DNA from: Chloroflexota bacterium
Lineage (GTDB): Bacteria > Chloroflexota > Anaerolineae > Aggregatilineales > Phototrophicaceae
Length of the DNA stretch: 64,000 bases
Assembly (NCBI GenBank): GCA_028875245.1
Contig: JAPPEU010000057.1
Span: 1-64,000, forward strand
Reading direction: 5' to 3'
Under the pieces are notes generated by a model that did no database searches, was not told the DNA's origin, and saw only the letters and a list, made by a program, of their open reading frames with translations. The translations under genes and the position numbers were made by a program. This document shows positions 19,656 to 58,572 of this stretch, piece by piece. Every line of letters begins with the position of its first letter. The stretch's first letter is position 1.

Positions 19656-19763
19656 CGGGCGGACAAAACAGACCAGGCCAACGCGAAAAAACTCTGTGCC
19701 CTCTGTGTCCTCGGTGGTAAAAATAAACGACATCTTCACTGCGACTCACAACTGGTACGCACC

Positions 19764-42639: not shown

Positions 42640-43719
42640 ATGCGCATAATCGATGAATCGGTCCTCGAAGATCTTGCGCTGGGCGCGGCCGTCCTCGGCA
42701 CCGGTGGCGGGGGCGACCCCTACATCGGCAAGCTGATGGCGCGCCAAGCCATCCGCGATTATGGCCCGGTCGAGCTTTACACCCTCGATGAGCTCGACGA
42801 TGAGGACCTGGTCGTGCCGACGGCCATGATGGGCGCGCCGACTGTGATGGTCGAGAAGATGCCCAACGGCGATGACATCGTCAACGCCTTTCAGTCGGTG
42901 GGCAAATACATCGGGGCGCCGGTCAAAGCGACGATGAGCATTGAAGCCGGCGGGCTGAACTCGGTCGTGCCGATTTATTGCGCCGCGCGCCTGCGTGTGC
43001 CGATGGTCGATTGCGATGGCATGGGCCGCGCCTTCCCCGAGTTGCAAATGGTCACGCATACGATTCATGGCATTTCATCGACGCCCTTCGCCATGTCCGA
43101 TGAGCGCGGCAACACGGTCTTGATGGAGACGGTCAGCAACCTGTGGACGGAGACATTCGCCCGCAGCGTGACGGTCAACATGGGCGCGATGGCGATGATC
43201 GCGCTCTATGCCGCCACCGCCGCCCAACTGCGCGAAGCCGCTATCCCAGGCACGATCACCCTGGCGGAAGAAATTGGCAAGGTCGTGCGCCGCGCCCGCC
43301 TGGAAGAAGACGAGCCGGTTGAAACGATACGCGAAGCGGTCGGCGGATACCTGATTTTCAAGGGCAAGATAGGCGATGTCGAGCGGCGCACCGAAGCCGG
43401 CTTCGCCAAGGGTGACGCCCTGATCGACGGCATCGACGAATACGCCGGGCAACAATTGCAATTGAGCTTCCAGAATGAGCATCTCGCCGCCCGCATCGAC
43501 GGCGAATTCAAGGTGACGGTACCGGATCTGCTGGCGGTGCTGGATGTGGATACGGGCGAGCCGATCACCACGGAAGGTCTGCGTTATGGCTTCCGCGTCG
43601 CCATCATCGCGATTCCCTGCGCCGATAAATGGCGAACGCCCAAGGGCTTGGAGATCGTCGGTCCCGCTTATTTCGGCTATGACACCGAATACGTCCCGGT
43701 CGAAGAACGATACGGCTAG
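42640..43719 (+). CDS. DUF917-family protein (copy 2)
   Basis: LGAAVLGTGGGGDPYIGKLMA; DCDGMGRAFPELQM; LQLSFQNEHLAARIDGEF. Confidence 0.9.
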   Translation: MRIIDESVLEDLALGAAVLGTGGGGDPYIGKLMARQAIRDYGPVELYTLDELDDEDLVVPTAMMGAPTVMVEKMPNGDDIVNAFQSVGKYIGAPVKATMSIEAGGLNSVVPIYCAARLRVPMVDCDGMGRAFPELQMVTHTIHGISSTPFAMSDERGNTVLMETVSNLWTETFARSVTVNMGAMAMIALYAATAAQLREAAIPGTITLAEEIGKVVRRARLEEDEPVETIREAVGGYLIFKGKIGDVERRTEAGFAKGDALIDGIDEYAGQQLQLSFQNEHLAARIDGEFKVTVPDLLAVLDVDTGEPITTEGLRYGFRVAIIAIPCADKWRTPKGLEIVGPAYFGYDTEYVPVEERYG

Positions 43720-43776
43720 GCAATTGTAGGGACGATTCTGTGAATCGCCCGCGAAAGATCTATATGTAGGGGCGAC

Positions 43777-44058
43777 CTATCAGAATCTGTTGAAGAATGT
43801 CCTCTGTTGCAGAATTGCACACATTTTCACCACAGAGGAAAGAAGGAAACACAGAGAACACAGAGACAATTTGCTGCGCTTTGTGTCGGTTTTTATTTAA
43901 TTTCTCTCGTAGAAGCAGAGTTTTCCGACACCATCGAAACGATTCTATTCAAACAGAAAACTCTGTGCCCTCTGTGAATTCTCGGTGTACTCTGTGGTAA
44001 AAGCTATACGGTGTCCGCTACAGGGAAAATCTGCGTGATTTTCAACAGACTCTATCAG
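43777..44058. mobile_element. MITE-like insertion (268 bp, 43784-44051) with 7-bp target-site duplication CTATCAG
   Basis: TIRs AATCTGTTGAA... / reverse-complement AGTCTGTTGAAAAT; CTATCAG at 43777-43783 and 44052-44058; excising it restores a family A hairpin. Confidence 0.75.
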
Positions 44059-44081
44059 ATCGCCCGTCGCGGAACATGAAT

Positions 44082-44179: not shown

Positions 44180-45259
44180 ATGCGCCTATTGCACGAACAA
44201 GAAATCGAAGACATCGCCCTGGGCGCCGCTGTCTTGGGCACGGGCGGCGGTGGCGACCCCTACGTCGGCAAATTGATGGCGCGGGAAGCAGTGCGCCAAT
44301 ATGGGCCCGTAGAGCTTTACACCCTCGACGAACTTGATGATGAGGACCTGATCGTGCCATCGGCTGGCATGGGCGCGCCGATCGTCATCGTGGAAAAGCT
44401 GCCGGCCGGCGATGACATGATCCGCGCCTTTGAAGCGCTGGGCCGCTATTCCGGGCGTAAACCGCGAGGCACGATGAGCATCGAAGCCGGCGGTCTCAAT
44501 TCGATCATGCCAATTTATGTCGCCGCCCGCCTGCGCATCCCCATGGTCGATTGCGACGGCATGGGCCGCGCCTTCCCCGAGATACAGATGACGATTTTCA
44601 CCGCGCATGGCATCACCGCCAGCCCCTTCGCCATGTCCGACGAGCGCGGCAACGTGTTGCTGATGGACACGGTCAGCAACAAGTGGGTGGAGACATTTGC
44701 CCGCTCCTGCGTTGTGCACATGGGCGCCGAAGGCATGATCGCGCTCTATTCGGCGACGGTGAAGCAATTGAAAGAAGCGGCCATTCACGGCACGATCACG
44801 CTGGCGGAAAAGATCGGGGTGACGGTTCGCACTGCTCGCCGTGAGGAAGCCAATCCGGTCGACGCCGTGCGCGAGGCGGTCGGCGGCTTTCTCGTCTTTC
44901 GCGGCAAGATCACCGATGTCGATCGGCGGATCGAAGGCGGCTGGAATCGCGGCGACGCCAAGATGGCCGGCACGGGTGACTTCAGCGGGCGGGAGCTGCT
45001 GCTTGAATTTCAGAACGAGCACTTGGCCGTGCGGGTCGATGGTGAATTCGCCGCCACCGTGCCCGATTTGATCGCCGTGCTCGATAGCGAAACGGGCGAG
45101 CCGATCACGACCGAGGCGCTGCGTTATGGCATGCGCGTGGCGGTGATCGCCTTCCCCTGCGCGCCGCAATGGCGGGAGCCGGCCGCGCTGGAGCTCGCTC
45201 ACCCGCGTTACTTCGGCTACGATGTCGACTACGTGCCGGTCGAGGAGCGCTTTGGGTAA
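44180..45259 (+). CDS. DUF917-family protein (copy 3)
   Basis: LGAAVLGTGGGGDPYVGKLMA; DCDGMGRAFPEIQM; LLLEFQNEHLAVRVDGEF. Confidence 0.9.
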   Translation: MRLLHEQEIEDIALGAAVLGTGGGGDPYVGKLMAREAVRQYGPVELYTLDELDDEDLIVPSAGMGAPIVIVEKLPAGDDMIRAFEALGRYSGRKPRGTMSIEAGGLNSIMPIYVAARLRIPMVDCDGMGRAFPEIQMTIFTAHGITASPFAMSDERGNVLLMDTVSNKWVETFARSCVVHMGAEGMIALYSATVKQLKEAAIHGTITLAEKIGVTVRTARREEANPVDAVREAVGGFLVFRGKITDVDRRIEGGWNRGDAKMAGTGDFSGRELLLEFQNEHLAVRVDGEFAATVPDLIAVLDSETGEPITTEALRYGMRVAVIAFPCAPQWREPAALELAHPRYFGYDVDYVPVEERFG

Positions 45260-46080
45260 TTCACCACAGAGGCACAGAGAAAATACTAGAGGCTACGAAA
45301 TGGCTACGAATGAGCCGATTCGCGGATTGGATTTGTCAGGTGAAGATTTGCGGGGTTGGGACTTGTCGGATATGGATTTGTCTGGTGCGAATATGTCTGA
45401 CACGGATCTTAGAGATGTGGACTTAACATATACCAATCTGTCAGAAGCAAATTTGTCTGGCGCGAACTTGTCGAGAGCAATAGCCTATAACGCAATATTG
45501 AATGGAGCGATATTGCATGGAGTGGATTTATCAGGGGCGACTTTTGCTGGGGCGACCTTGAAATTCGTGGACTTTACTGGCGCGAAATTGTCCTGCACAA
45601 GATTCCGTGACGCAATCATGCACGGCGCAGATTTGTCTGGAGTGAGCTTTTCCGGTACGCGATTGTTTGGCGCGAAATTGCATGGCGCCGACTTGACCAG
45701 CGCGGATATGTCTGAAGAGGACCTGACCGGTGTGGATATGTTCAAGGCGAATTTAGCTGAAGCAGATTTGTACGATTCGGACCTGTATGGAGTGAACTTG
45801 ACGCAGGCTAATTTGCACAAAGCGATCATGTCTGGTGCAAAATTTACAAATGCAAACCTGACTGGTTCAGTTTTGCGCTACGCAATCCTGTCATTCGCAG
45901 ATTTGACAAGCGCGGAATTAACCTGTGCTGACATGACCGGCGCAAATTTATATTGTGCTGAATTCAGCAGTGGGACCACCCTCCCCGACGGCAGCAAGTG
46001 GACACCTGAAACAGACATGACCCAATTCACCGATCCTTCAGATTAACCAATCTCTGCGCCCTCTGTGCCTCTGTGGTGAA
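45260..46080. repeat. Perfect 20-bp inverted repeat bracketing the pentapeptide-repeat gene (family B)
   Basis: TTCACCACAGAGGCACAGAG at 45260-45279 and its exact reverse complement at 46061-46080. Confidence 0.85.
45300..46046 (+). CDS. Pentapeptide-repeat protein
   Basis: Run of A(D/N)LSX-type pentapeptides from residue ~10 to near the C-terminus (GLDLSGEDLRGWDLSDMDLSGANMSDTDLRDVDL...). Confidence 0.95.
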   Translation: MATNEPIRGLDLSGEDLRGWDLSDMDLSGANMSDTDLRDVDLTYTNLSEANLSGANLSRAIAYNAILNGAILHGVDLSGATFAGATLKFVDFTGAKLSCTRFRDAIMHGADLSGVSFSGTRLFGAKLHGADLTSADMSEEDLTGVDMFKANLAEADLYDSDLYGVNLTQANLHKAIMSGAKFTNANLTGSVLRYAILSFADLTSAELTCADMTGANLYCAEFSSGTTLPDGSKWTPETDMTQFTDPSD

Positions 46081-58418: not shown

Positions 58419-58572
58419 CATGCCGTGGGTAGTGTATCGAAGTCGGTGGAAATTCATTTTCACCACAAAGGAAAGAAGGACACAAAGAAATTGCATATAG
58501 CCTACGTTTCTCGGTGTCCTCGGTGGTAAAGTTTTTTTGTTTCCACCGAAAGGGATACACTTCCATGCCGTG
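58419..58572. mobile_element. MITE-like element (136 bp, family C ends, family B core) with 9-bp target-site duplication CATGCCGTG
   Basis: GGTAGTGTATCGAAGTCGGTGGAAA... / reverse-complement GAAGTGTATCCCTTTCGGTGGAAA; CATGCCGTG at 58419-58427 and 58564-58572. Confidence 0.75.

Follow-up and report, generated by a model that had tools for sequence, protein, structure and literature searches.

How a short stretch of DNA without a transposase gene comes to lie in the loop of a REP-like hairpin, and which enzyme brought it there, is the question raised by one locus of the window, the 64,000-nucleotide stretch of a Chloroflexota contig that was analysed as a whole. A sequence-only reading had described the locus as a REP-like hairpin with a mobile MITE nested inside it, and perhaps as a case of hairpin targeting. 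The nesting is borne out by 11 copies with their duplications, hairpin sites and empty sites, and the targeting is supported by the finding that both the MITE and an insertion sequence (IS) of the same genome sit at hairpins. The explanation we consider best, with a probability of roughly 85%, is that the MITE inserts at the apex of REP-like hairpins, with the IS1182-family transposase of this IS as the most likely enzyme acting on it in trans.

Boundaries and parts of the element

The MITE occupies positions 43783..44052 (+ strand), runs from G to C over 270 bp and encodes no transposase; its extent is based on the 11 genomic copies and on composition, the GC content being 42% as against 59% for the window. 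Terminal inverted repeats had been claimed for it, and its ends indeed read as AATCTGTTGAA / TTCAACAGACT. The left repeat, GAATCTGTTGAA (43783..43794, + strand), contains the core TCTGTTGAA that is common to the left end GTGTCTGTTGAAAAAC of the IS, while the right one, GAGTCTGTTGAA in inward reading, lies on the - strand at 44041..44052, and 11 of their 12 bases match. Next to them stand the two copies of the target duplication TATCA (43778..43782 and 44053..44057), and further out the halves of the target hairpin, namely GTAGGGGCGACC on the left (GTAG tag plus arm, 43766..43777, + strand), for which an orthologous empty hairpin exists in the related genome G023, and the arm GATCGCCC on the right (44058..44065, + strand). 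Removal of the element restores a hairpin, GGGGCGACC-TATCA-GATCGCCC, just as had been predicted. The flanking genes are paralogous, both on the + strand and both of 359 aa: an S-Me-THD-like (DUF917-type) gene at 42640..43719 and another S-Me-THD-like gene at 44180..45259 (Pfam PF06032/PF20906 in each case).

The string CTATCAG is present on both sides of a 268-bp core, as had been noted, but the 7-bp target duplication and the 268-bp length read from it have to be corrected to 5 bp and 270 bp, the true boundary lying one base outside the stated core at both ends. This follows from the copy L006, which reads AACT-TATCA-G...C-TATCA-AGCC at its boundaries, where the target is T-TATCA-A and only TATCA is duplicated, and from seven TATCA-type IS insertions, whose left flanks are mostly TTATCAG and right flanks mostly CTATCAA; L006 and these IS copies rule out a 7-bp duplication. 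The longer duplication is only apparent because the outer C and G belong to the hairpin and, in nearly all copies, equal the end bases of the element.

The CACAGAGG arms reported within the core (as family B) are real. A left CACAGAGG module (TTTTCACCACAGAGGAAAGAAGGAAACACAGAGAACACAGAG, 43823..43867, + strand) and an inverted right one (43960..44002, - strand) pair with each other in the folded strand. This CACAGAGG/CTCTGTG module recurs in the window at 58455-58530 and 19688-19716; since it is found both by itself and within two MITE families that differ in their ends and in the length of their duplications, it looks separately spreading or captured. Inverted CACAGAGG arms (TTCACCACAGAGGCACAGAG / CTCTGTGCCTCTGTGGTGAA) are also seen at 45260-45281 and 46049-46080, one at each end of a pentapeptide-repeat-like ORF (45222-46046). 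The second MITE family, about 145 bp long (GGTAGTGTATCGAAGTCGGTGGAAATT...TTTCCACCGAAAGGGATACACTTCC), lies at about 58430-58570 of the window and at L024-L030 and has at least about 17 copies; its duplications appear to be 8-9 bp long (e.g. ATGCCGTG, GCAGAATG, ACAGCAGCG), it carries a related CACAAAGG module inside, and at L020 one copy lies within a decayed relative of the first MITE.

Genomic copies, empty sites and target hairpins

In its own genome (4.2 Mb, 88 contigs) the element has 11 full copies with 99-100% identity over 270 bp; being short, without transposase, bounded by terminal inverted repeats and a target duplication, and present in multiple similar copies, it is a MITE. The earlier reading had asked whether other copies lie in family A hairpins and carry duplications. 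Perfect duplications, 5 bp each, flank nine of the 11 (TACTA, TATCA, CGATG, CATTG, TATCA, TGGTA, TAATA, CAGCA and CAATG), and ten of the 11 are at or adjoin the apex of a GTAG/GGGCGA REP-like hairpin (GGGCGA...TCGCCC type). At least 6 of 8 arm positions are paired at 8 of 11 sites, as compared with 0.63% of window positions (binomial about 4e-16), and this statistic, obtained on near-identical copies (n = 11), places the association of MITE and hairpin far beyond chance. As for the weaker sites, 5/8 arm positions are paired at L010 and 4/8 at L005 as joined; in the latter a CACCG duplication fits given the loss of one terminal C at the right end, and with this loss allowed for the target is the common hairpin GGGCGAGCCACCGTCTCGCCC. 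L009 has only a poor hairpin, with flanks CTCAT/GTCAT that match in 4 of 5 duplication bases, and its site is probably a coding overlap.

For the detection of empty sites, a composite of the joined flanks of nine copies was compared with all 34 genomes of the genus, and the loci were then read. Such sites in related strains, which the first reading had called for, were found in two genomes. In the sister species G011, with about 91% identity at these loci, the sites of L001, L003, L006, L008 and L009 are uninterrupted, and the hairpin is intact at those of L001 (GGGCGACCTATTAGGTCGCC), L003, L006 and L008; the L005 site is also without the element in this species, though hairpin-rich DNA has been added beside it. 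The counterpart of the window copy's site in G023 (80% identity), after the same gene, is a hairpin without the element, GGCGAACCCTTGGCTCGCC. The MITE is thus a mobile element. Elsewhere in the genus, across 33 further genomes, no near-identical MITE (99-100%) occurs; relatives with 70-75% identity are found in G015, G024, G004 and G011, and some of these older relatives are in hairpins with a 5-bp duplication (TATCA in G004, L087; CGGCG in G015, L096).

The target hairpins are GTAG REPs, showing the GTAG tag, the palindrome, the high copy number and a RAYT gene in the genome. GTAG or its complement adjoins the arm in many of them, and 24 hairpin apex centres were counted in the 64-kb window. 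A RAYT-like Y1 transposase gene (Y1_Tnp, 219 aa; G000:C36, locus L166 1456-2190), preceded at about 75 bp by a GTAG-type hairpin, is a possible source of these hairpins. Rfam gave one match only, far below the gathering score and taken as chance, and plasmid records gave none. Among the targets the outer GGGCG/CGCCC bases are nearly constant, and the inner arms vary with pairing kept (GACC/GGTC, GTTT/AAAC, GACT/AGTC). The duplication is centred on the hairpin dyad and equals the 5-nt apex. This apex is of the form YRNYR at 34/34 IS ends, which are non-independent, and in 10/11 MITE copies, versus 17/24 hairpins of the window; since so many window hairpins have it as well, YRNYR is mostly a property of the hairpin and only partly of the enzyme. 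CTGTG at L170, a locus described below, is an exception.

A related insertion sequence of the IS1182 family

The MITE shares its end core TCTGTTGAA with the IS, which is not fully assembled and whose ends differ in the remainder. A pattern search with the right-end motif found GTGTCTGTTGAAAAACAG in 18 places besides the MITEs, 17 of the 18 within 30-53 bases of a contig end, and GACAGTGTTGAAAAACTGG in 16 further places, likewise at contig ends; because nearly all ends are so placed, we infer that the IS is one long repeat which the assembler did not cross, with about 18 copies in the genome as counted from the ends. The end cores, GTGTCTGTTGAAAAAC (n = 18) and GACAGTGTTGAAAAAC (n = 16), nearly all adjoin a hairpin arm. 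Of 16 IS right ends, 15 can be matched by their 5-bp duplication to a left end, whereas the stricter null, which samples the observed 5-mers, gives a mean of 9.3 (P = 0.0003); the pairs of individual contigs are putative, and some of the joins so obtained restore perfect 8/8 arms, e.g. GGGCGTTTCAGCGAAACGCCC. Five IS insertions (L035, L039, L054, L055 and L056) have a longer left flank in common (..CAATCATAGCGAAAT.TGTAGGGGCGACTTATCA), and the hairpin there is therefore part of a larger repeat, multiply hit or duplicated. The sequence-only reading had suggested looking for a transposase with matching terminal repeats and a 7-bp duplication; what exists is an IS whose end cores match, whose targets are the same and whose duplication is constant, at 5 bp and not 7.

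An intact IS transposase gene was not seen in the assembly of its own genome, where the full IS is unassembled. On sequence grounds, namely an internally deleted copy and homologues in other Chloroflexota, the IS is assigned to the IS1182 family. The deleted copy, L031, includes the left end and a variant form of the right end; its flanks, CGCCA / CGGCG, do not match each other, and its coding sequence retains the C-terminal 83 residues of a transposase, with a match to DDE_Tnp_1_6. IS1182-type proteins of full length are encoded by the homologous elements of G096 and G141, whose ends are GACTTTGTTGAAAAAC; the protein of G141 scores 278 bits with the NCBIfam IS1182 model, above the cut-off of 270, and that of G096 265, just below. 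In G141 a GTAGGGGCCGAC hairpin encloses the copy between its arms, and the 6 bp ACATCG are found on either side. G096 was assigned by search to the family of the window's genome; here the left flank of the homologous IS is absent, and the IS adjoins coding sequence. At L170, in an Anaerolineae MAG, a GTAGGGGCGATTCTGTG hairpin arm is directly followed by GACAGTGTTGAAAAACTGG and a transposase N-terminus. The transposase search of genome contigs returned only three loci, all from Chloroflexi/Anaerolineae MAG. A genus-wide IS1182 profile search found only elements in G009 and G021; these are ruled out as parents of the MITE by their quite different ends, TGATACTGTTGGCG, and by flanks that, where read, have no GTAG hairpin.

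Mechanism and comparison with known systems

In the proposed mechanism, the non-autonomous MITE would integrate at the apex of a REP-like hairpin, its two 3' ends being joined with a stagger of 5 bp that is symmetric about the hairpin dyad, whereby the 5-nt apex (mostly YRNYR) would be duplicated and one arm retained in each flank. It would most likely be moved in trans by the IS1182-family transposase, the IS having related ends and the same target preference. Another, unseen transposase with the same 5-bp stagger and hairpin target might have moved the MITE instead, the IS1182 element being only a neighbour; the MITE ends (GAATCTGTTGAAGAAT / GAGTCTGTTGAAAATC) are in fact unlike the IS ends outside the core and hence do not come from a simple internal deletion of the IS. 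However, core, duplication length, hairpin targets and genome are all common to MITE and IS, and the genus-wide profile search gave no IS1182 elements but those of G009 and G021, which makes such an enzyme improbable in our view. Still less can be said for hairpin and MITE being one composite unit that moves together, as the adjacency of nearly every copy to a hairpin might suggest: arms, apex and duplications differ between copies, and the orthologous hairpins without the element refute it, leaving it next to no credence. A derivation of the window MITE from the IS by deletion is ruled out too, for interior and subterminal sequence both differ.

With mobilisation by the IS as the preferred reading, the cue of the enzyme may be the folded hairpin, its two-fold symmetry or the GGGCG/CGCCC sequence. 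That linear duplex sequence is recognised, as GGGCG...CGCCC half-sites around a YRNYR centre with folding irrelevant, is a serious candidate to which we give somewhat less than even odds; the nearly constant outer bases and the YRNYR excess of the non-independent IS ends over the window hairpins speak for it, whereas the inner arms differ with pairing kept, a weak objection given the intrinsic covariation of REP arms, and the family member IS1272 picks hairpins without common primary sequence (PMC4923244). We propose only tentatively that the transposase may act on an extruded or single-stranded hairpin, with joining of the element ends where the 5-nt loop meets the stem and a resulting duplication of the loop, which is the branch proposed for IS1272. 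Comparison alone cannot separate structure from symmetry, because a symmetric enzyme on a symmetric duplex leaves the same trace and REP arms covary independently. With 11 MITE and about 18 IS insertions in one genome, about 29 in all from two related kinds of element and almost all at hairpin tips, and with sister-species empty sites for the MITE, structure versus sequence recognition in IS1182 transposition becomes directly testable.

GTAG-tagged REPs have been reported from Chloroflexi, and 24 families are published (PMC3733652). The hairpins described here resemble them in the GTAG tag, the short stem and the small loop, as well as in the RAYT-like gene with an adjoining hairpin, and differ in being the target, not the element. 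Specific, multi-copy insertion into REP palindromes is likewise known for IS1397, ISKpn1, IS621, ISPsy8, ISRm22 and ISPpu9, of the IS3, IS110, IS4, IS256 and IS5 families; these are other families, and IS1182 goes unnamed in that source (PMC1525189), whose accessible part presents no IS-MITE pair. Our results add IS1182 and Chloroflexota to the REP-targeting elements and show one way in which REPs can offer selfish DNA safe intergenic sites of insertion. The limited open-access literature held nothing relevant on IS1182 with MITE and REP, or on the CACAGAGG repeat.

The closest known system is IS1272 / TnSha1 of Staphylococcus, which has an IS1182-family transposase and targets inverted repeats capable of forming hairpins (PMC5678879, PMC4923244). 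IS1272 replaces hairpins, deleting all or part of them without duplication; here the MITE and the IS keep both arms and duplicate the 5-nt apex, unlike the stem-loop replacement of the IS1272 type. A duplication of the loop only, by joining at the loop, was drawn by Wan et al. as hypothetical pathway c (PMC5678879), and the Chloroflexota sequences fit this branch, proposed but not reported for IS1272. As far as the limited open-access literature could be checked, the loop-duplicating outcome, the MITE partner, the GTAG-type hairpin target for the IS1182 family and the Chloroflexota host are new.
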